IMG/VR virus record: IMGVR_UViG_3300031687_001299
Location: 1-28,908 of that record
Origin: a virus
Strand: one strand, 5' to 3'
DNA: 28,908 nt
The notes under the pieces were generated by a model. The model was not told the origin of the DNA, did no database searches, and worked only from the letters and a program-made list of their open reading frames with translations. Below, piece by piece: positions 3,472 to 28,372 of this stretch. The translations under genes were made by a program, and so were the position numbers. How positions within the stretch are numbered: the stretch's first letter is position 1; each line of letters opens with the position of its first letter.

Positions 3472-4031
3472 AAGAATTAGGAAAGTTAGACTTAGTTAAT
3501 ATCATTATTAATAAAGCAATAGAAGAAGGGAACGGAGAAGCGTTTAAAGGTAAGTATAATCCTGAAACAACTCCTGGTGAAACTTTTGTAATACTAGTAG
3601 ATGGTGCACCAGCAGGTATGGTTTCATGCGAACCTAGTACTTACACCGGCGATCCAGACATAGCTGCAAGAGCTTGTCGTTTACATATAACCAAAGAATA
3701 TAGAGCTAAGCAATATGGGTTTCTTTTATTAGATGCTTGTTACGACTATTGCAGGCACGAAGGGTACAAAGTACTTTATATAACACATGATGTAAACTCT
3801 AAAGCAATGAATGCAATATATCAGAAAAGAAAAATGTCGTTATTTAAAGGAGCATCTAGAAATTTTTATATGTTACCTGCTTGGAAAGAACTAACATGGA
3901 ACAAGAAACATATATTTAAAGTAGACCCTCAAGCAGATTTTTATCAATACATATATCAAATTATATTAGAGGACGGTTTCCAATGGATTCCGAAAAGCAA
4001 CGTGGTGGGATTTAATGACATTCGTAGTTGA
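3441..4031 (+). CDS. GNAT family N-acetyltransferase
   Basis: This is a 196-residue protein with the GNAT core. A beta strand (ETFVILVDGAPAGMVSCEP) leads to ACRLHITKEYRAKQYGFLLL at about 78-97, where RAKQYGF (88-94) stands in for the R/Q-x-x-G-x-G/A acetyl-CoA loop. It is followed by a helix, the YKVLYITHDVNSKAMNAIYQ strand-helix (109-128) and KRKM, typical of the last GNAT motif. AAGGA lies 6 bases before the ATG. The gene overlaps both neighbours. GNAT enzymes transfer acyl groups from acyl-CoA to amines; the target here is unknown and could be the product of the radical SAM operon. Confidence 0.8.
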   Translation: MYKIYDRKQLKELGKLDLVNIIINKAIEEGNGEAFKGKYNPETTPGETFVILVDGAPAGMVSCEPSTYTGDPDIAARACRLHITKEYRAKQYGFLLLDACYDYCRHEGYKVLYITHDVNSKAMNAIYQKRKMSLFKGASRNFYMLPAWKELTWNKKHIFKVDPQADFYQYIYQIILEDGFQWIPKSNVVGFNDIRS

Positions 4032-4350
4032 TGATAAGTGTATACAATGTGTTCACACCGATTGTGTATCCGTATGTCCTGTGGATTGTTTCTATGAAGG
4101 TCCTAACATGTTGGTTATTAATCCAGATGAATGTATTGATTGTGGGTTATGTGTTTCTGAATGTCCTGAAGATGCTATTACAGATGAAGACGATGCAGAT
4201 CCTTACTGGTTGGAAATGAACGCTAAATTATCTTACCACCCAGGTTGGGAAATGATAGACGAACAGAAGCCTCCTATGGAAGGACACGAAGAAGCTAGTA
4301 AAATAAAAGATAAGAAAGATTTGTTGAGGATAGATTTTGTTACAATTTGA
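4015..4350 (+). CDS. fdxA: 7Fe ferredoxin, [3Fe-4S][4Fe-4S], FdxA type
   Basis: The 111-residue protein closely follows Azotobacter ferredoxin I: CIQCVHTDCVSVCPVDCFYE (9-28), then GPN and PDECIDCGLCVSECPEDAI (38-56). By position C9, C17 and C50 should bind the [3Fe-4S] cluster and C21, C40, C43 and C46 the [4Fe-4S] cluster; C12 and C25 match the free cysteines of the Azotobacter protein. The C-terminal extension is acidic. This is a soluble low-potential electron carrier. It lies directly upstream of a methyltransferase-like gene and six radical SAM genes, which need single electrons to cleave S-adenosylmethionine, so it is probably their dedicated donor; it could also serve the desaturase. 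The start has GGTGGG upstream and overlaps the GNAT gene by 17 bases. Confidence 0.93.
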   Translation: MTFVVDDKCIQCVHTDCVSVCPVDCFYEGPNMLVINPDECIDCGLCVSECPEDAITDEDDADPYWLEMNAKLSYHPGWEMIDEQKPPMEGHEEASKIKDKKDLLRIDFVTI

Positions 4351-4948
4351 AGAAGAACAATTAATAGATTGGATGCAAGGTATCAGGGAGAACCCTGATA
4401 TGATAAACGCTTTTTGGCCTAGCCAGATTAGATCTAAAGTATGGCTGACAGATTGGGTCAAACAATACTTGCCTAGTGCAAACAAAATAGTTATTTTTGG
4501 AGCATGGTATGGTGTGCTAGCAGACATGTTAATGTTACGATTAAAAAATCCTAAGATACTTGTTGTAGATAAAGCAAAAGATCCAATGTTGTGGTGTGGA
4601 AGAAAATATAACTATCACATAGGACTCATGGAAAAGTTTAGCTACGAAACCCGTGTAGACTTGGTGATAAATACAAGTACGGAACATATAACACAAACCG
4701 TGTATGATGAATGGTATGATAATATTCCAAAAGGAACATACTTCGTCATACAAGGTAATAATGATTTTGCAGAACCTGATCATGTTAGAGCGTGCAGTAG
4801 TCTAGAAATGTTTAATAAAATAAACAATGTACAGAATACGTTACACTCTGAGGCTTTAACTTATGAAGGACCCTGGAATACAATAGAAAATAAACCTACT
4901 TATTATGAGAGGTATATGACAATAGGGTTTAAAAGTGAACACAACTAA
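4337..4948 (+). CDS. SAM-dependent methyltransferase-like protein (Rossmann fold)
   Basis: The 203-residue product starts with TTG at 4337, supported by GAGGA 6 bases upstream and overlap with the ferredoxin gene. The middle looks like a class I methyltransferase fold: KIVIFGAWYGVLADMLMLRL (glycine loop), KILVVDKAKD (acidic residue at the end of strand 2), then VDLVINTSTEHI and GTYFVIQGNND as strands 4 and 5. The glycine loop (FGAWYG) is a loose version of the E/D-x-G-x-G motif, so substrate and activity are uncertain. The acceptor might be a product of the neighbouring radical SAM proteins. The 14-base overlap with the next gene indicates coupled translation. Confidence 0.65.
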   Translation: MLQFEEEQLIDWMQGIRENPDMINAFWPSQIRSKVWLTDWVKQYLPSANKIVIFGAWYGVLADMLMLRLKNPKILVVDKAKDPMLWCGRKYNYHIGLMEKFSYETRVDLVINTSTEHITQTVYDEWYDNIPKGTYFVIQGNNDFAEPDHVRACSSLEMFNKINNVQNTLHSEALTYEGPWNTIENKPTYYERYMTIGFKSEHN

Positions 4949-9010: not shown

Positions 9011-10014
9011 AAACAATAACATTACGACTAAGAAATAGTCGAGACAAAAGAATTAAGAAGTTAGATATAGTAATAGATTTAATTAATCACGAAGCTGTAA
9101 ATGAGTGGTATAGAAGATTTAAATATGAATTAGAAACGGGTGCGCATTTAGATAAAGGCCATTTATTTTTGGGGCAGAGTGTTTTAGGTAAAGAAGAATT
9201 AATGGAAAATATTAATACTACATTAGACAAAATAGAAGCATATGATTTTGTAGCAAATACAAGAACAGATTATCCTGTTTACAACAATCCAGATATTCCT
9301 GAAAGACTTACATTAGAAGACTTAGAAAAAGGCCACAACAATGCTAAGATGAATGTAATACACAATTATTTCCCTACACTTGCTGGACCATATGATAATA
9401 CATCTAATTGGTTGTATGTTGCTACAGAAGAAATAAGAGAATGTATATGTAGATTAAATGAAGAAGTACATGAGCTCCATACAGTCTTACAACATGAAGA
9501 AGATGAGCATTTAAGTTTACATGTAGCAATTTCCTGGCACAGAGATGCAGAAAAATTAACACAATTACCTGATATTTTTAACTCGTTATTTACTAAAGAA
9601 GTCAACAATGGAGATTTATTATTGGGTTATCCTCAAGTAGGTAAAACACATATAGAAGCTTGGTTGGAAGAAGATGAGGAACTGGACGATGAGCATATAG
9701 ATTGTATTGAAAAACTATCAGGAGATTTTTTATTAAAACTCTCGCCTAGTATGAGATATCCTTTTTTAGATGAGTTTGATAAGTGGTTAGAAAATCATGA
9801 TATAGATCCTGAAGATGAAACACTTAGATTGGGCTGGGCTGTAATGGGGAAAGTTAGAGACGTAAACACACTAACAAAAGAAAGAATGGCAAAATATGAT
9901 GATGTAGATTTAATAACAATTTCTGAAGAAGACGAAATAAAATCTTATGATTTCCCATATAGTAGATTTGATAAAGAATATAAAGAAGAGAGGATTGAGC
10001 ATTTAAATGACTAA
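9007..10014 (+). CDS. Unknown phage protein, shares a family with 26623-27666
   Basis: This 335-residue, acidic protein sits between two radical SAM genes. It starts at TTG 9007, with GGAGAG upstream, and overlaps the preceding stop; it also overlaps the next start by 8 bases. There are no membrane segments and no known catalytic motif that I recognise. Recurrent elements are LEKGHNNAKMNVIHNYF (about 106-122), a helix with CRLNEEVHELHTVL, then LLLGYPQVGKTHIEAW and, near the end, LRLGWAVMGKV. These elements line up with the protein at 26623-27666. QVGKT resembles a P-loop only superficially, because the full G-x-x-x-x-G-K-[TS] pattern is absent. It could be a partner or substrate of the radical SAM enzymes, or an unrelated phage gene; no function is assigned. 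Confidence 0.8.
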   Translation: MKTITLRLRNSRDKRIKKLDIVIDLINHEAVNEWYRRFKYELETGAHLDKGHLFLGQSVLGKEELMENINTTLDKIEAYDFVANTRTDYPVYNNPDIPERLTLEDLEKGHNNAKMNVIHNYFPTLAGPYDNTSNWLYVATEEIRECICRLNEEVHELHTVLQHEEDEHLSLHVAISWHRDAEKLTQLPDIFNSLFTKEVNNGDLLLGYPQVGKTHIEAWLEEDEELDDEHIDCIEKLSGDFLLKLSPSMRYPFLDEFDKWLENHDIDPEDETLRLGWAVMGKVRDVNTLTKERMAKYDDVDLITISEEDEIKSYDFPYSRFDKEYKEERIEHLND

Positions 10015-15322: not shown

Positions 15323-15858
15323 TGAATTTAAATTTAATAGATGATAAATTTCCTGTATGGGAAATAACCGAATGGCAATTACCGGAAGTAGATTATACAG
15401 AAGTATACGCTTACGATCAAAGTAGTAAATATTACAAATCCTCTGATTTAAGATGTAAAGTAAATGCTTATATTGATATGAGTCAAGGCGTAACCATACA
15501 AGAGATGTTAAAAGATTCAGACTTAAGAGTTTTAGATCAAATGTGGAAAGGACATCTAAACAGATTACAGTGGCCTATGGGTAATAATAATATATTATTA
15601 GATAAACCAGGATTTAATATGTCAGAACATATAGACAATCGCTTTGTAATCGGTGTACTAATTATAAACTTACAAGACAATCCTATAGGTTCAGGAACAG
15701 TTTTTACTGAATTAGAATATACAAGTCCAACTAAGAAAGGAACAGGAATATTTTTTCTAAATCATATTAATACAGAACACAAAATATATCAACCAGGACC
15801 TGAGGATAGATTGATATCATATCAAACAGTAACATTGGACAATCTACATCATGATTAA
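15322..15858 (+). CDS. 2OG-Fe(II) oxygenase-like protein (prolyl hydroxylase-like fold)
   Basis: This 178-residue protein has a double-stranded beta-helix pattern with a candidate facial triad: H103 and D105 (MSEHIDN), H153 (NTEHKIYQP) and R163 (DRLISYQTV) for 2-oxoglutarate binding. Between them are hydrophobic strands VIGVLIINLQDNPIGSG and GTGIFFLNH, in the usual order. Phages of the T4-like marine group often carry such enzymes. The start overlaps the stop of the 44-residue gene (TAATG) and the end overlaps the NodU-type gene by 8 bases. The substrate is unknown. This is a different subfamily from the gene at 2797. Confidence 0.7.
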   Translation: MNLNLIDDKFPVWEITEWQLPEVDYTEVYAYDQSSKYYKSSDLRCKVNAYIDMSQGVTIQEMLKDSDLRVLDQMWKGHLNRLQWPMGNNNILLDKPGFNMSEHIDNRFVIGVLIINLQDNPIGSGTVFTELEYTSPTKKGTGIFFLNHINTEHKIYQPGPEDRLISYQTVTLDNLHHD

Positions 15859-17254
15859 ATGGGGCATCTCAGCATACAATCACAACGCAGCTCTTACAGT
15901 AGTAAAGGGAAACGAAATTCTTTTTGCTTCTGAGGCAGAAAGATATAGTGGTATTAAAAATGATGCTAACATTCCCGATGAGCTAATACAAGCAGCTTTG
16001 GAATATGGGGAACCTTCCCAAGTTATGTGGTATGAGAAACAATATCTAAAACAACTTAGACGGTTATACGCAGGACAAAAGTTAAAAGGTCTGAGCATAC
16101 ACCCATATTTAAAAAACTTTAATATGAGATCTTATACTCATCACACCACACACGCAGCGGCTGGATTCTATACTAGTCCGTTTGAAATTGCAACAGTACT
16201 TGTGGTGGATGCTATAGGAGAGTTTACAACAACGAGTATATGGAATGGCAATAGACACTTATCTAAAGTGTGGAGTGAAGGGTATCCAAAATCCTTAGGG
16301 TTATTTTATTCAGCAATAACACACAGGTGTAACTTAAAACCAAATGAAGAAGAATATATCCTAATGGGTATGGCTGCTTATGGAGACCCTGACAAATACT
16401 ATGATAAAATGAAGCCTCTGTTAACTCAGAACTTACACAAAGGATGTCGTGATTGGCTACCCGGTGTAACTGACTACAACGACTTTGCAGCCTCAGCTCA
16501 AAAGATATATGAAGAAGAGTTTGAGAAGCTTCTTATCAAAGCTAAGTTACTTTTACCTTATAATAAAAAATTAGTTATAATGGGAGGGTGTGCTTTAAAT
16601 TGTGTAGCAAATAATTTAGCATTAAAACATTATGAGGATATATGGATAATGCCAGCTCCTGGAGATGCAGGTTCCTCACTGGGAGCTATATTAGCAGACA
16701 CAGAGCAACACGTTAATTGGAAAGGCCCTTACTTAGGACACAATATAGAAGGCGAGTATCCTGTAAAAGATTTATTAGGTGAGTTATTACAAGGTAATAT
16801 GGTAGGTGTTGCAAATGGTAGAGCAGAGTTTGGACCAAGAGCTTTAGGTAATAGATCACTACTAGCAGACCCGAGAGGAAAAGAAGTAAAAGATAAGGTT
16901 AATGCAATTAAACGTAGACAAGAGTTTAGACCGTTTGCACCCGTTGTAATGGAAGAACACGCTAAGTCTATATTTAATATGCCTGTTGATTCATCTCCTT
17001 ATATGCAGTACGTTATACAATGTATTAAAAAAACCGAGTACCCTGCAATAATACACAAAGACGGCACGTCTAGGGTTCAAACAGTTAACAATAAGCAACA
17101 TCCAGGGTTATATAAGCTCCTAAAACAGTTCTATAAAGAGACAGGGTGTCCTATGTTACTAAACACTAGCTTAAACATCAAAGGTTACCCTATGGTTAAT
17201 ACAGTACAGGACGGTATCCTATTTCAAAATAAATATAAAGTAAAAGTCTTTTGA
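15851..17254 (+). CDS. NodU/CmcH/TobZ-type carbamoyltransferase
   Basis: The 467-residue protein covers the two parts of the family. The N-terminal Kae1-like domain has NHNAAL (10-15, a variant of the usual HD-x-A-A), EAERYSGIK, THHTTHAAAGF (metal-binding His, about 96-106), VVVDAIGEF (D120) and MGGCALNCVANN (244-255). The C-terminal domain has GRAEFGPRALGNRSLLADPR (323-342), FRPFAP and LLNTSLNIKGYP. The family transfers a carbamoyl group from carbamoyl phosphate by way of carbamoyl-AMP to a hydroxyl of sugars or antibiotics. It is the last gene of the long operon. The product should be an O-carbamoylated compound or glycan; the acceptor is unknown. Length is slightly short at the C-terminus compared with the usual family. 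Confidence 0.88.
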   Translation: MIKWGISAYNHNAALTVVKGNEILFASEAERYSGIKNDANIPDELIQAALEYGEPSQVMWYEKQYLKQLRRLYAGQKLKGLSIHPYLKNFNMRSYTHHTTHAAAGFYTSPFEIATVLVVDAIGEFTTTSIWNGNRHLSKVWSEGYPKSLGLFYSAITHRCNLKPNEEEYILMGMAAYGDPDKYYDKMKPLLTQNLHKGCRDWLPGVTDYNDFAASAQKIYEEEFEKLLIKAKLLLPYNKKLVIMGGCALNCVANNLALKHYEDIWIMPAPGDAGSSLGAILADTEQHVNWKGPYLGHNIEGEYPVKDLLGELLQGNMVGVANGRAEFGPRALGNRSLLADPRGKEVKDKVNAIKRRQEFRPFAPVVMEEHAKSIFNMPVDSSPYMQYVIQCIKKTEYPAIIHKDGTSRVQTVNNKQHPGLYKLLKQFYKETGCPMLLNTSLNIKGYPMVNTVQDGILFQNKYKVKVF

Positions 17255-17975: not shown

Positions 17976-18722
17976 ATGGCTAGACGTAACTTACAGCTAG
18001 TTCAAGATAAACAAAACACAAACGGAAGGAGATCAACTCCTCTCAAAATCACCGATAAGGATCTCGCAAGATTCGATCCAATCACAACAACTCAAAATAG
18101 CTTTTGGCAAAAATATAGACGGAAAGACGCTTTACTGTTACACGGTTCAGCCGGCACCGGCAAAACATTTATTGCTATGTACAAAGCTTTAGAAGAGGTA
18201 ATGGCTAGAGGCGGCCGTTATAGTAAACTAATAATCATTCGTTCAGCAGTCCCGTCTAGAGAGATAGGACACTTGCCAGGAGACTATGGCGAGAAAATAG
18301 ATGTGTATTCTATACCATATCAAAATATGATGGACGAGTTATTCCCTCAAAAAGAGAAGCCATACGACAGACTTATGGAACAAAAGAAATTATACTTTAT
18401 GTGCACCTCGTTTATACGAGGGATTACATTGGATAATTCTATCATAGTCGTTGATGAATGTCAGAATATGAGTGACATGGAAATTAACTCTATAATGACA
18501 CGAGTAGGGCATCACTCTAAGATTATATTCTGTGGGGACTTTAGACAGACAGACTTAAACAAGAGTAATGATAAGTCCGGTCTTAAGAAGTTCATACAAA
18601 TAGCAGAGGATATGGAATCATTTGATACTGTGGAATTCATGCCTGAGGACATAGTTCGCTCAGATCTCGTTAAAGAGTACATATTAGCAAGGGTAGCGTA
18701 TGAAGATAAACATGAAAAATAG
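17976..18722 (+). CDS. phoH: PhoH family ATPase
   Basis: The 248-residue P-loop protein has Walker A GSAGTGKT (57-64), the PhoH-specific IIIRSAVPSREIGHLPGDYG stretch, Walker B IIVVDECQNM, and a sensor-like IIFCGDFRQTDL. PhoH proteins are ATPases predicted to act on RNA, and phoH is one of the most common genes of marine phages; its role in infection is not settled. AGGAGA lies 7 bases before the ATG. The 64 bases upstream hold no convincing promoter core, so it may be read from the late promoter at 17257 or from a middle-type promoter not recognisable here. Confidence 0.95.
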   Translation: MARRNLQLVQDKQNTNGRRSTPLKITDKDLARFDPITTTQNSFWQKYRRKDALLLHGSAGTGKTFIAMYKALEEVMARGGRYSKLIIIRSAVPSREIGHLPGDYGEKIDVYSIPYQNMMDELFPQKEKPYDRLMEQKKLYFMCTSFIRGITLDNSIIVVDECQNMSDMEINSIMTRVGHHSKIIFCGDFRQTDLNKSNDKSGLKKFIQIAEDMESFDTVEFMPEDIVRSDLVKEYILARVAYEDKHEK

Positions 18723-19880: not shown

Positions 19881-20543
19881 TTGTTTAACCACATACCTGT
19901 TGAAATAGATCAACTAAAAAGAAAGAATACAGAAAACGGTCGTAGATATGAAACACCAACAGGTGTTTTGTATCCTTCAGTTACCACAATCCTCTCACAC
20001 AAGACAAAGCACTTTATACAAGAGTGGCGTAAAAGAGTAGGAGCTGAAGAAGCAGACAAAATTTCTAGAATTGCTTCTGTGCGTGGAACTAAAATCCATA
20101 CACTTTGTGAAGATGCTCTCAATAATAAATCTGAGGATGTTTCTAAATTAAGTATTCTAGATCAAGAGATGTACAAGAATTTTCGTCCCTTGTTAAATGA
20201 CATAGATAATATCCGTTGCTTAGAAGGAACGCTTTACTCAGATCATTTAAGACTGGGAGGACAAGTAGATTGTATTGCAGAATACAAAGGAAAGTTATCT
20301 GTAATAGACTTTAAAACTTCCAAAAAGAGAAAAACTAGATCACAATGCTATAATTATTTTATGCAGTGTTCTGCCTACGCCATTATGTTTGAGGAAAGAA
20401 CAGGTATCCCTGTAGATCAAACTGTAATCTTAATGGCACAAGAAGACGAAGACCCAGCAATATGGGTTGAAAAGAGAGATGATTTTGTACCACAGTTAAT
20501 TGAGACTAGAGATGCGTACGAAAACCAAAATCAAAACAGTTGA
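19881..20543 (+). CDS. PD-(D/E)XK exonuclease (RecB/Cas4-like)
   Basis: The 220-residue protein starts at TTG 19881, with AGGA 7 bases upstream. It has the RecB-type nuclease signature in order: GTKIHTLCEDA (H73, E77), E115, GGQVD (D130), IDFKTSK (D143, K145) and QCSAY (Q162, Y166). The N-terminal YPSVTTILSH block is typical of phage exonucleases of this group. It probably degrades or trims DNA during replication, recombination or host DNA turnover. It lies in an early operon and just upstream of the tRNA gene. Confidence 0.88.
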   Translation: MFNHIPVEIDQLKRKNTENGRRYETPTGVLYPSVTTILSHKTKHFIQEWRKRVGAEEADKISRIASVRGTKIHTLCEDALNNKSEDVSKLSILDQEMYKNFRPLLNDIDNIRCLEGTLYSDHLRLGGQVDCIAEYKGKLSVIDFKTSKKRKTRSQCYNYFMQCSAYAIMFEERTGIPVDQTVILMAQEDEDPAIWVEKRDDFVPQLIETRDAYENQNQNS

Positions 20544-20637
20544 TTCTTTATCCCGTAAAGAAAAAAAGAAGAACAAACAACTACACAACAAGAAGTTAAG
20601 ACAGCAGAAACAATCTGCCCGTAGCTCAACTGGATAG
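20512..20637 (+). CDS. Possible small Lys-rich protein, 41 residues
   Basis: This short frame starts inside the end of the exonuclease gene and stops inside the tRNA gene. The product (MRTKTKIKTVDSLSRKEKKK and onward) is strongly basic, which fits small DNA- or RNA-binding phage proteins. No clear ribosome binding site is seen, and reading into a tRNA is unusual. It may be only AT-rich filler between exonuclease and tRNA. Confidence 0.3.
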   Translation: MRTKTKIKTVDSLSRKEKKKNKQLHNKKLRQQKQSARSSTG

Positions 20638-20691
20638 AGCAACAGCCTTCTAAGCTGTAGGTTATAGGTTCGACTCCTATCGGGCAGGCCA
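20615..20691 (+). tRNA. tRNA-Arg (anticodon UCU)
   Basis: The sequence folds as a full cloverleaf of 77 bases: acceptor CTGCCCG/CGGGCAG, D arm GCTC/GAGC, anticodon arm ACAGC/GCTGT with loop CTTCTAA (anticodon TCT), T arm ATAGG/CCTAT with TTCGACT, discriminator G and an encoded CCA end. It reads AGA and AGG, the Arg codons that dominate the genes of this window. The gene ends 5 bases before the late promoter at 20697. Confidence 0.96.
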
Positions 20692-20704: not shown

Positions 20705-20782
20705 TAAGTAAGAATATAGCATAAGGTTATATTAGTATCAGAGCATTCGCTCGTAATTGATACGCAATCCAAAGGAAAACAC

Positions 20783-22069
20783 ATGTACAAGTATATAGCC
20801 GTGGCGCTTTTAGCCACCGTATCTACATCAACGTGGGCGACAGATTATGTCTCAGGCGTTGCAGATATTATTAATAGCAATTGTGTAGTATGTCATAGAG
20901 CAGGTGGCATAGGACCAATGAGTTTTGAAACGTATGAACAAGTTAGACCATGGGCTCCTCTTATAAGTTATAAAGTAATGACAAGAGAGATGCCTCCATA
21001 TGCCTACGATCACGGTATTGGCATACAAGACTTACAAGGCGATTGGCGTTTATCTCAAGAAGATATTGACACTATCGTAGAGTGGGTAGACAATGGATCA
21101 TCATATGGTGATCAAGACATAGTTATACAACCTCCAATACTTGCTGACACAGAAGCATGGAGTTTTGAAGTTGACTTTGGTTCTCCAGATACTATCATTG
21201 CTTCAACTCCAATAGACATACCTGCAAGCGGCAACGACTTATGGCACAAACACAATGTTCCAACAGGGCTAGCCGAGGACCGATGTATTAAAGCAGTACA
21301 AGTTAAACCACGTGGCAATGCGAAGTCAGTAGTACATCACGCTAACTCCAGCATTATTACTGAGGGAGGCAGAGAAGGTATGCTTACAGAATATGCTATG
21401 GGAAAGTGGGGAGAGATAGTTCCAGAAGGAGTATGCAGAACTATCCCAGCAAACGCAGAAGTGGCATGGGACATTCATATGTTCCCAGGTGGACTTGGAG
21501 CAATGGCACCAGGATCAGTTATCAAAGACAACGTGGTAGAGATTGGGCTTTGGTTATACACCGAAGAGGAAAGCGAACAACTGAAATACAAACAAGACTT
21601 GAGTTTGTATCGCCTAGGAGATCAGGACGATATAACTATACCACCCAACGGCTATTACATGACACAAGGCTTTCACAGTTTTGATCATCCAGTTAGACTA
21701 GATAGTTTCCAACCACATGGACACTTGCGTATGAACGCAGCAAGTTTGGAAATATTCTATCCAGAGACAGGACGCACAGAGCAGATTAGCCAAGTAAGTA
21801 ATTGGAGTGCAACATGGCATCACAGTCATTTGTATGAACCAGACGTTGCACCACTATTGCCAGCAGGAGCAGTTATTGTTCTAAAGCAATGGTATGACAA
21901 CACAGCAGAAAACCCAAATAATCCAGATCCAGATATGTGGGTAATGGGTGGTAGTAGAACAGGTGACGAAATGACGCACGCCTGGTTAGCTATCACACAC
22001 TTAGATGAAAAAGGCTACATTAAACTAAAAGAGAAAAGAGATGCAAATATTAATATTGCTAGTGATTAG
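20783..22069 (+). CDS. Secreted cytochrome c / copper type II monooxygenase fusion (PHM-like)
   Basis: The 428-residue protein has a signal peptide (cleavage near residue 19). A cytochrome c domain follows, with CVVCH (C34, C37, H38) and MPPY (M70, probable axial Met). The rest resembles copper type II, ascorbate-dependent monooxygenases of the peptidylglycine alpha-hydroxylating (PHM) group. HH 185-186 with H232 match the CuH site (PHM H107, H108, H172); H312-G-H314 and M397 in GGSRTGDEM match the CuM site (H242, H244, M314 in PHM, where the text is GGTSSDEM). Bacterial relatives with the same order exist. It should hydroxylate an aliphatic C-H in the periplasm, with electrons passing through its own haem. 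The late promoter places it late in infection. Substrate unknown; an unusual gene for a phage. Confidence 0.85.
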   Translation: MYKYIAVALLATVSTSTWATDYVSGVADIINSNCVVCHRAGGIGPMSFETYEQVRPWAPLISYKVMTREMPPYAYDHGIGIQDLQGDWRLSQEDIDTIVEWVDNGSSYGDQDIVIQPPILADTEAWSFEVDFGSPDTIIASTPIDIPASGNDLWHKHNVPTGLAEDRCIKAVQVKPRGNAKSVVHHANSSIITEGGREGMLTEYAMGKWGEIVPEGVCRTIPANAEVAWDIHMFPGGLGAMAPGSVIKDNVVEIGLWLYTEEESEQLKYKQDLSLYRLGDQDDITIPPNGYYMTQGFHSFDHPVRLDSFQPHGHLRMNAASLEIFYPETGRTEQISQVSNWSATWHHSHLYEPDVAPLLPAGAVIVLKQWYDNTAENPNNPDPDMWVMGGSRTGDEMTHAWLAITHLDEKGYIKLKEKRDANINIASD

Positions 22070-25642: not shown

Positions 25643-26563
25643 ATGTCGTTTAATACACTTTCAGAGCTTCGTAATCAACGAGGCAAATTCGATAACTTGA
25701 TGAAAGAAGTCGAAAAAATAGCAAACCCTAAATCTAACTTTCAGAAAGATGAACGGGAATGGAAACCCACAGTAGACAAAGCAGGAAACGGTTATGCCGT
25801 CGTTCGGTTTTTGCCTGCACCACAAGGCGAAGATATGCCATGGGTTAGAGTTTTCAATCATGGCTTCCAAGGCCCTGGTGGAAAATGGTATATCGAGAAC
25901 TCTCTCACTACACTCAACAAACAAGATCCAGTTTCAGAATTAAACTCTGAACTTTGGAATTCTGGTGTTGAAGCTAACAAAGAAATAGCTCGTAAACAGA
26001 AGAGACGCTTAAATTATTATGCTAACATCCTAGTCGTTGAAGATAAAGGAAACCCAGCTAATGAAGGACAAGTATTCCTTTACAAGTTTGGTAAAAAGAT
26101 CTTTGACAAAATTAAAGATGTTATGCAGCCTCAATTTGAAGACGAAAATCCAGTTAATCCTTTTGATTTCTGGGAAGGCGCTAACTTCAAGTTAAAAATT
26201 AGACAGGTAGAAGGATATCGTAATTATGATAAAAGTGAATTTGATTCCCCAAGCCCGGTAGCAGATGATGATGCTAAAATTGAAGGTCTATGGCAAACAC
26301 AACATTCCTTATCGGGTGTTGTAGCTCCAGACCAATTTAAATCTTATGAGGAGTTAAAAGCTAAATTGGACTTAGTCCTAAAAGGCCAGACAGCTCCAAC
26401 AGCAGAGTCTATATCAGCTACTACTAATGATGCAGATGACGACCATTTTATGGAAAAAGTGAAAAGCGTCCAAGCAGCACCAGCAGTATCAGCTCCTGAG
26501 TCTACAGATTCAGATGAGGATGATACGTTATCTTACTTCAAGTCCCTTGCAGAAGATAACTAA
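25643..26563 (+). CDS. 32: gp32, single-stranded DNA-binding protein
   Basis: The 306-residue protein matches T4 gp32 in order: an N-terminal cooperativity segment (MSFNTLSELRNQRGKFDNLM), the OB-fold core with YAVVRFLPAP, VFNHGFQGPGGKWYIENS, NYYANILVV, GKKIFDKIKDVM and FWEGANFKLKIRQVEGYRNY, and an acidic C-terminal tail (DSDEDDTLSYFKSLAEDN) that binds partners. The product has no Cys: at the T4 zinc-site positions C77, C87 and C90 it has Ser87, Asp95 and Ser98, so the zinc ribbon is lost, although the His (H73) remains. AGGAGA lies 7 bases upstream. It probably uses the tandem-repeat leader for self-regulation and is followed by a terminator. Confidence 0.95.
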   Translation: MSFNTLSELRNQRGKFDNLMKEVEKIANPKSNFQKDEREWKPTVDKAGNGYAVVRFLPAPQGEDMPWVRVFNHGFQGPGGKWYIENSLTTLNKQDPVSELNSELWNSGVEANKEIARKQKRRLNYYANILVVEDKGNPANEGQVFLYKFGKKIFDKIKDVMQPQFEDENPVNPFDFWEGANFKLKIRQVEGYRNYDKSEFDSPSPVADDDAKIEGLWQTQHSLSGVVAPDQFKSYEELKAKLDLVLKGQTAPTAESISATTNDADDDHFMEKVKSVQAAPAVSAPESTDSDEDDTLSYFKSLAEDN

Positions 26564-26622: not shown

Positions 26623-27666
26623 ATGAAGTACCATATATTATATAGTAGCGGAGATGTTGTAAAAAACAATAGTTCTAATACGACTCTATGGCCATACAAC
26701 GAAGAAGCAGAAAAGGTTATTACTTGGGAATTAAATGACTACACCTTAACTAGGAAGTTCATACATCTACATCAAAAAATGTTTGATAATGCTACTATAC
26801 AAGATGGCGGTAGATATCTCGCACAAGAACAGAGTATATGTACTAGCGTATCTGCAGAGTCTATATTAGAGTCTAGAAGGCATCATAATAGTCTAATAAG
26901 AACATTACAAGCATTAAAAAAAGCTCCTAAGGTTAATGGCCAACCTCCCATAACATTTGATACTCCAGACTCTTTACTTGTTAATGAATTAGATCCTTAT
27001 GATAGGTGTGAGGATAAATTTAATAAAGGGCATTATCATTTTGAAACACAGGCAAAAATATGGCAAGACGCTCATGTAATAGAAAAGGTTAATATAGAGT
27101 ATTATATGAATGTTGTTAGGATACTCTCAGAATTAAATGAAACGTGCCATTACAACGAACAAACGCTCTACAATGTTCAACCTGAAGAATACAGAACAGT
27201 TTTAAAATACACATATCTATCTCATAACAGTAAACCAGACTACTTACGAGCTCATAATTTTACTGATAAATTAGAAGATAAAGACTATGAACATTTCTGT
27301 TTTCAATCAGGCAAAAAGGCTAATACGTTATTTCTAGACTTTGGAACTGTTGGTAAATCCCTAACAGAAGTAGCATCGACAAATGATTTAGAGTTACTGC
27401 ATACAAAAGGAGTAACACAACAAACATCTATAAACCCTTGGGTTAGATATGATTGGTCAGTAGGAGCTGAAAAAACAGAAGATAGGTACAATGAATGGTT
27501 AATAAATAATAACGTAAAAGATTATTATGATTTATCATTACCTATGATGACACCTGGGTTGCACCCATTAGGAGAATGTATATCTCATGATTTTTCAACA
27601 CCCAAAGAGTTCGCGGATTATATAGAAGCAACTCCTAAAATAGTAGGAACTAAACTTGAAATATAA
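26623..27666 (+). CDS. Unknown phage protein, related to 9007-10014
   Basis: This is a 347-residue soluble protein without recognised catalytic motifs. It shares the order of elements with the unknown protein of the radical SAM operon: a helix with RRHHNSLIRTLQAL, a helix with VRILSELNETCHYNEQTLYN, then LFLDFGTVGKSLTEV with following ND-x-EL, and a C-terminal YNEWLINNN segment before a Gly-Leu region. This suggests one phage protein family with at least two members here. Function unknown. It starts right behind a late-type promoter and overlaps the desaturase gene by 11 bases. Confidence 0.8.
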   Translation: MKYHILYSSGDVVKNNSSNTTLWPYNEEAEKVITWELNDYTLTRKFIHLHQKMFDNATIQDGGRYLAQEQSICTSVSAESILESRRHHNSLIRTLQALKKAPKVNGQPPITFDTPDSLLVNELDPYDRCEDKFNKGHYHFETQAKIWQDAHVIEKVNIEYYMNVVRILSELNETCHYNEQTLYNVQPEEYRTVLKYTYLSHNSKPDYLRAHNFTDKLEDKDYEHFCFQSGKKANTLFLDFGTVGKSLTEVASTNDLELLHTKGVTQQTSINPWVRYDWSVGAEKTEDRYNEWLINNNVKDYYDLSLPMMTPGLHPLGECISHDFSTPKEFADYIEATPKIVGTKLEI

Positions 27667-28372
27667 GACTAAAACAATACTTAAACTTTTTATACTATTC
27701 TCTACAGCAATAGCAGGCTTAGGATATTGGTTTACACACGGAGCAACAGTAACAGAGTTCATTCTGTATTTTGTATTACTGTCTTTTGTTTCACGAATAG
27801 CAAATGCAGGATATCATAGGTGGTTAACACATAACCAATTTGAACCTACATGGTTGGGTAAAAAGATAATGCTATATTTCATGGTGCTTACAGGTGAAGC
27901 TCCTCCAGGACATTATGTAATAGCACACTTAAACCATCACAAATACACAGATAAAGAAGGCGATCCTCATGGTCCAAACCAAATAGGTTTTTGGAATTTA
28001 GCATTAGGACAATTTAATGTAACAAAGCCTGCCTTTATGCGAAACTATGCTAAGCACAAAGACGCACAATGGGTTACTAAACATTACTGGAATTTATACT
28101 TTGCCAATTGGATAGTATTTGCCTTAATAAATCCTTACTTAAATGTTTGGTTGGCATGTATGTTTGCTTGGAGTTGGTTACAAATGATTAATCTTAATTG
28201 GAGAGGCCATGGCGGAACAGACGCATCACCTACAAACTTAGGTATACTCTCAAATTTGTTTATGGGTGGAGAAGACTATCACAAGAACCATCATGTTAAT
28301 CCAGGCAATCTTGTAATGGGAAAATGGGATACGACAGGTAAATACTTAGTCCCTTGGTTGTTATCAAAATGA
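27656..28372 (+). CDS. Fatty acid desaturase, second type
   Basis: The 238-residue integral membrane di-iron enzyme starts at TTG 27656, with AGGA 7 bases upstream, inside the end of the previous gene. Histidine boxes are HRWLTH (54-59), HLNHH (91-95) and YHKNHH (H209, H212, H213), and GDPHGP follows the second box. Hydrophobic segments flank the boxes. It differs clearly from the desaturase at 2067 (for example HREHH there, HLNHH here), so it is not a recent duplicate. It would introduce a double bond in host acyl chains with O2 and electrons from a ferredoxin-type donor. The 4-base overlap with the next gene (ATGA) indicates coupling. Confidence 0.88.
   Translation: MKYKTKTILKLFILFSTAIAGLGYWFTHGATVTEFILYFVLLSFVSRIANAGYHRWLTHNQFEPTWLGKKIMLYFMVLTGEAPPGHYVIAHLNHHKYTDKEGDPHGPNQIGFWNLALGQFNVTKPAFMRNYAKHKDAQWVTKHYWNLYFANWIVFALINPYLNVWLACMFAWSWLQMINLNWRGHGGTDASPTNLGILSNLFMGGEDYHKNHHVNPGNLVMGKWDTTGKYLVPWLLSK

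Follow-up and report, generated by a model that had tools for sequence, protein, structure and literature searches.

A candidate phage-borne dicopper monooxygenase of the PHM fold with a built-in cytochrome c domain

A gene in a virus record from IMG/VR, here called F1, probably encodes an auxiliary enzyme of the periplasm, a type-2 dicopper monooxygenase with the PHM/DBM fold (PHM, peptidylglycine alpha-hydroxylating monooxygenase), in which an N-terminal c-type cytochrome would act as the built-in electron donor. The window, meaning the whole stretch of DNA that was analysed, is 28,908 bases long and includes T4-type gp32, helicase loader, PhoH and exonuclease genes. A sequence-only reading of this DNA had already proposed a PHM-like copper monooxygenase, and the match of the predicted structure to dopamine beta-hydroxylase (DBH) and PHM, the conservation of the ligands and the genuine linkage of the gene to phages all argue for that assignment.

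The open reading frame, signal peptide, CxxCH motif and six copper ligands described in that reading are all present in the translation (Table 1). The protein begins M-Y-K, followed by the signal-peptide-like stretch IAVALLATVSTSTWA, and residues 1-20 have low pLDDT in the structural model. Behind the signal peptide, helices 22-33, 51-66 and 92-103 of the model form the three-helix core of a cytochrome domain, which Pfam PF13442 matches with E=0.0018, under the curated cut-off. Among the aligned homologues, Met70 never varies and C34, C37 and H38 hardly do, as expected for a haem c with an axial Met. Thus, F1 combines the CxxCH motif, distal Met and three-helix core of a class I cytochrome c.

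Table 1. Features of the window around F1 (positions in the window), and loci of a secreted protein beside cellular relatives (positions in each locus)
Feature	Position	Strand	Basis
PhoH-like protein	17976..18722	+	phrog_170 E=5.9e-76
Phage exonuclease	19881..20543	+	phrog_298 E=1.7e-72
tRNA-Arg (TCT), between exonuclease and F1 genes, not part of the enzyme	20615..20691	+	ARAGORN
Putative late promoter word TATAAATA, T4-type, 79 nt upstream of the F1 start codon	20697..20704	+	
AAAGGA, likely ribosome-binding site	20771..20776	+	read from sequence
F1 gene (predicted secreted cytochrome c / PHM-fold dicopper monooxygenase)	20783..22069	+	ORF open, 428 aa
Signal peptide, residues 1-19 (...TSTWA/TDYV)	20783..20839	+	read from translation
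Class I cytochrome c domain, ~residues 20-105	20840..21097	+	PF13442 match, model helices
Haem attachment motif C34-V-V-C-H38	20882..20896	+	93/94 aligned homologues
Met70, candidate axial haem ligand (MPP motif)	20990..20992	+	94/94 aligned homologues
PHM/DBM-fold copper domains, ~residues 118-408	21134..22006	+	Foldseek top 31 all DBH/PHM
H185-H186 = PHM H107-H108 (CuH)	21335..21340	+	94/94 conserved; hhalign pairs with PHM HH
H232 = PHM H172 (CuH)	21476..21478	+	92/94; hhalign pairs with PHM VHYG
H312-G-H314 = PHM H242-T-H244 (CuM)	21716..21724	+	86/94; motif order
M397 = PHM M314 (CuM), in GGSRTGDEM	21971..21973	+	94/94 conserved
T4 gp32-type single-strand DNA-binding protein	25643..26563	+	phrog_224 E=2.4e-121
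~310 aa secreted protein, cellular locus L212	7554-8477		
~310 aa secreted protein, cellular locus L213	9282-10214		
~310 aa secreted protein, cellular locus L214	5302-6255		
~310 aa secreted protein, cellular locus L215	7228-8160		

Searches of PDB sequences with F1 alone or with profiles returned only weak matches, mostly to the cytochrome, so that a comparison of structures was needed. No Pfam or NCBIfam model passes its cut-off on F1, which itself matches neither PF01082 (Cu2_monooxygen) nor PF03712 (Cu2_monoox_C); the search with the N-domain model PF01082 was silent everywhere, controls included. The C-domain model PF03712 does match a paralogue, F2, and other members of the family (best E 2.4e-4), passing the Pfam cut-off in seven of eight related genomes, with relatives falling below it or just over it. 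A direct profile comparison of F1 with rat PHM using hhalign was weak (E 0.06). A model of F1 built from an alignment of 94 relatives reached a pLDDT of 90.2 and a pTM of 0.87 (an earlier one, built on close homologues only, had a pLDDT of 59), and in a Foldseek search of the PDB its first 31 matches were all DBH or PHM, with E from 6e-13 to 3.1e-9 and probability 1.00; the next match had E 1.5e-5 and came without real superposition. Among the matches listed from the BFVD viral structures, there was no PHM-like fold. The sequence-only reading had expected superposition on PHM to bring the ligands together in two sites: the predicted model has the two-domain PHM/DBH fold with the ligands in PHM motif order, and at this level it agrees with the expectation. 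It superposes only loosely, with a TM of 0.55-0.63 (normalised by PHM) and an rmsd of about 5 Å, and the spatial relation of the two copper domains may therefore differ from that in PHM.

The ligand set is that of the PHM/DBM family, with His-His plus His at CuH and His-x-His plus Met at CuM, where the equivalence of H312 and H314 rests on motif order, sequence alignment with PHM by hhalign being unreliable in that region. The DEM of F1 pairs with that of PHM (reference sequence identical to PDB 1yip) only at permissive hhalign settings. The context proposed earlier for the Met ligand, GG-x3-(S/G)DEM, fits the phage protein, which has GG-x3-GDEM (GGSRTGDEM), but rat PHM has one residue less at this point, GG-x2-SDEM (GGTSSDEM). 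Conservation was counted in the alignment of 94 relatives, drawn from viral and cellular loci. Within the copper domain, the five named His are the most conserved of 14 and M397 is the most conserved of nine Met, and a chance choice would hit exactly these residues with a probability of 5.6e-5 in this alignment. All ligand departures among the 94 sequences fall in one cellular paralogue group, and every ligand is kept in 80 of 80 phage homologues wherever the sequence is present, as it is in the viral copies of F2.

From the fold and these ligands, we infer that F1 may carry out O2-dependent hydroxylation of C-H bonds. The gene would be transcribed late, from a T4-type promoter, and its product exported by Sec; host Ccm would then link haem to C34 and C37, where H38 and M70 would serve as axial ligands, and copper would be loaded into its sites in the periplasm. 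Single electrons could reach the haem from a respiratory cytochrome of the host or, in those phages that have one, from a neighbouring small phage cytochrome c, and pass on to CuH, while CuM would bind O2 and hydroxylate a C-H bond of a substrate predicted not to be peptidyl-glycine. In this way, F1 presumably keeps host periplasmic oxidation going in late infection. Alternatively, F1 could be an electron sink, passing electrons from host periplasmic cytochromes to O2 with little or no coupled hydroxylation and so relieving over-reduction in infection, a role like that proposed for the cyanophage genes for plastoquinol terminal oxidase. The built-in cytochrome c, the extra small cytochrome c next door in some phages and the lack of any obvious pathway partner captured alongside F1 fit this idea, yet we consider it unlikely, as the full CuM site, including its Met, is kept in every phage copy, and the many diverged copies per cell genome better suit a diversity of substrates than a general oxidase.

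It is also rather improbable that F1 is a copper-binding or haem-copper protein with no monooxygenase activity, acting, for example, in copper delivery, storage or sensing. Non-catalytic relatives do seem to exist: in eight aligned cellular paralogues of 560-620 aa, the CuM His-x-His is replaced by Arg and Asn/Ser, with the other ligands mostly kept, so not every member of the family is a PHM-type catalyst. However, no phage copy shows this loss, and neither does any of the other 86 aligned sequences. The long paralogues adjoin F1-type genes in cells (L083:4501-6315 and L212:5415-7280, both on the minus strand, and relatives), some have an AhpC/TSA-type match, and they are possibly non-catalytic partners.

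PHM (rat, 1phm/1sdw) and DBH (4zel), the closest known enzymes, are animal monooxygenases of hormone and dopamine biochemistry. They are likewise secreted, with a two-domain beta fold and the six copper-ligand equivalents in identical order, but identity in the structural alignment is about 13%, and whereas PHM and DBH rely on ascorbate, F1 has an N-terminal cytochrome c as its presumed donor. The shared fold and ligands would also allow F1 to amidate or otherwise modify a peptide as PHM does, such as a phage or host surface peptide. This is hardly to be expected, since PHM R240, which we take to be the residue that binds the peptide carboxylate, and N316 and Y318, presumably its peptide-binding partners, correspond to Q310, H399 and W401 in F1 (counted from ligands H242/M314), and no PAL-like lyase gene was recognised beside F1 in the phage loci examined. 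The copper domain of F1 also has only two Cys, in contrast to the disulphide-rich PHM. By fold and sites F1 would work as PHM and DBH do, but with the peptide-holding residues replaced and so few Cys it is better not classed among the peptidylglycine enzymes, and its substrate is most likely a small molecule other than peptidylglycine, judging from sequence.

The gene is genuinely phage-borne, as the earlier reading had it: beyond the T4-type genes of the window itself, hallmark genes (gp23 major head protein, scaffold, protease, tail fibre, PhoH) stand beside its homologues across phage loci, of which 80 were examined. At least four phage contexts could be counted, in which F1 follows gp21-, gp22- and gp23-type head genes (in many contigs of one lineage it stands directly behind gp23, the major capsid gene of T4 type), lies between a UvdE endonuclease and an Fe-S carrier/tail fibre region, adjoins thymidylate synthase, or lies near PhoH and exonuclease, as in the window. 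Although marine Gammaproteobacteria commonly carry very similar genes and one genome contig mixes cellular genes with phage-like copies, these contexts, the separate phage-dominated clade, a median dN/dS of 0.085 (strong purifying selection) and ligands that are never lost refute misbinned cellular DNA in virus contigs, or a decaying passenger, as a general explanation, and leave it only the slimmest chance. Phage hallmark neighbours, purifying selection and host origin together mark F1 as a probable auxiliary metabolic gene.

The late promoter proposed for F1 fared less evenly. Each of the eight copies of TATAAATA in the window precedes a gene start on the same strand by 4-87 nt, compared with 10.6% of permuted words, and this placement fits a T4-type late promoter; the total number of such words in the window is not above chance, however, and only 16 of 71 viral homologues have the exact word upstream of them. 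Late expression of F1 is probable.

Several other genes of the window are worth recording. Six long genes between 4935 and 13866 (starting at 4935, 6283, 7805, 10007, 11256 and 12451) resemble radical SAM paralogues; those at 4935 and 6283 match Pfam Radical_SAM, one of them just under the cut-off, and radical SAM PHROGs are matched by that at 10007. Just ahead of this run is a ferredoxin gene (4015-4350). There are two fatty acid desaturase genes (2067-2810 and 27656-28372; Pfam FA_desaturase, E ~1e-13) and a NodU-like carbamoyltransferase (15851-17254; phrog_1601, E=2.7e-99), and on the minus strand, 194-1561 encodes an apparently secreted protein that has no Pfam match and includes a long, low-complexity repeat of Asn and Thr.

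Rather than the rarity of a single phage that the sequence-only reading had suggested, F1 is part of a widespread, host-derived module, and a search of viral metagenomes for the same architecture found it encoded by at least 225-236 IMG/VR stretches. The further statement that no phage enzyme of this kind is well described holds up: there was no F1 homologue among 50,697 deposited phage records, and no description of a phage PHM-like enzyme was found in the open-access literature. The paralogue F2 is a second copper-cytochrome protein, 25-30% identical to F1 and with the same haem and copper residues. It follows F1 in 45 of the 64 phage loci with room for it, at an offset of -79 to +682 nt, often overlapping or 3 nt apart, and on the same strand in 52 of 52 cases. 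Nine phage loci have a gene for a small class I cytochrome c between the two; this gene is absent from the window and from the cellular loci searched, and F2 is not in the window, which is a fragment. We tentatively suggest, as a possibility somewhat short of even, that F1, the small cytochrome c and F2 make up a complete module, carried by marine T4-like phages, that would divert part of the host's periplasmic electron flow and use O2 to hydroxylate dissolved organics in late infection. If so, the module would represent a hitherto undescribed class of phage metabolism, built on an enzyme family that is chemically uncharacterised in cells as well.

The same cytochrome/PHM architecture is found in cells, among Gammaproteobacteria, Gemmatimonadota and Acidobacteriota, with F1's ligands and identities of up to 82%; no paper characterising these proteins was found in the open-access literature. 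The best match comes from the family of Pseudohongiella sp. O18, in which 106 of 137 genomes have matches at E <= 1e-60, and as many as twelve copies were scored in a genome. A tree made by a quick method, with long branches elsewhere in it, groups the phage copies with two cellular genes (SH-aLRT 100) inside the gammaproteobacterial (Pseudohongiellaceae) radiation. The simplest reading of this placement is that F1 was captured from a Pseudohongiellaceae-like cell (OM182-type Gammaproteobacteria, free-living in the ocean), and such bacteria are candidate hosts of the phages. CcmH, of the cytochrome c maturation system that would attach the haem, is present in eight of eight genomes of this presumed host group.

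Cellular versions often stand in arrays, and directly upstream of the closest ones lies a gene for a conserved secreted protein of about 310 aa (Table 1). None was seen beside the phage copies, which have the monooxygenases, sometimes with the small cytochrome, but no such partners. Two contigs blur the line between cell and phage. In a Pseudomonadales genome contig (L125:4824-6858), cellular genes are followed by a truncated F1 and an F2 that falls inside the phage F2 clade, which could reflect either transfer from phage to cell or a chimera in the assembly. The other contig, of 335 kb and from a Neomarinimicrobiota genome record (L082), has gene neighbours in common with the phage loci and resembles a phage that was binned together with a bacterium. 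PQQ alcohol dehydrogenases near cellular F1-type genes (27 copies, in 19 of 79 loci) were considered as a pathway hint and set aside, as the background is about 0.06-0.27 per 17 kb and the enrichment is not clear. Pseudohongiellaceae-type genomes (G001, G003, G073, G115 and others) have 13-58 matches to PQQ-dependent dehydrogenases each, and because they are so full of them, these enzymes give no clear guide to the substrate.

The closest phage precedent for F1 is pmoC. In the pmoC-phages, a single copper monooxygenase subunit was captured from methanotrophs and is co-expressed with structural genes (PMC7674155). Like the F1 phages, pmoC/amoC viruses (PMC7674155) carry a host-captured gene for a copper monooxygenase function, but pmoC/amoC is one membrane subunit of an unrelated copper enzyme, whereas F1 would be a complete soluble enzyme that includes its haem donor.

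Should F1 prove active, many marine phages would encode a soluble dicopper monooxygenase that brings its haem donor with it. That viruses took the gene and kept it under purifying selection suggests that it is of value for energy or carbon supply. F1 also points to an uncharacterised and strongly expanded periplasmic oxidation system in Pseudohongiellaceae (OM182-type), where some genomes have a dozen close copies. Finally, the family may provide models of PHM/DBH chemistry from bacteria, perhaps independent of ascorbate, with enzyme and electron donor fused in one protein.
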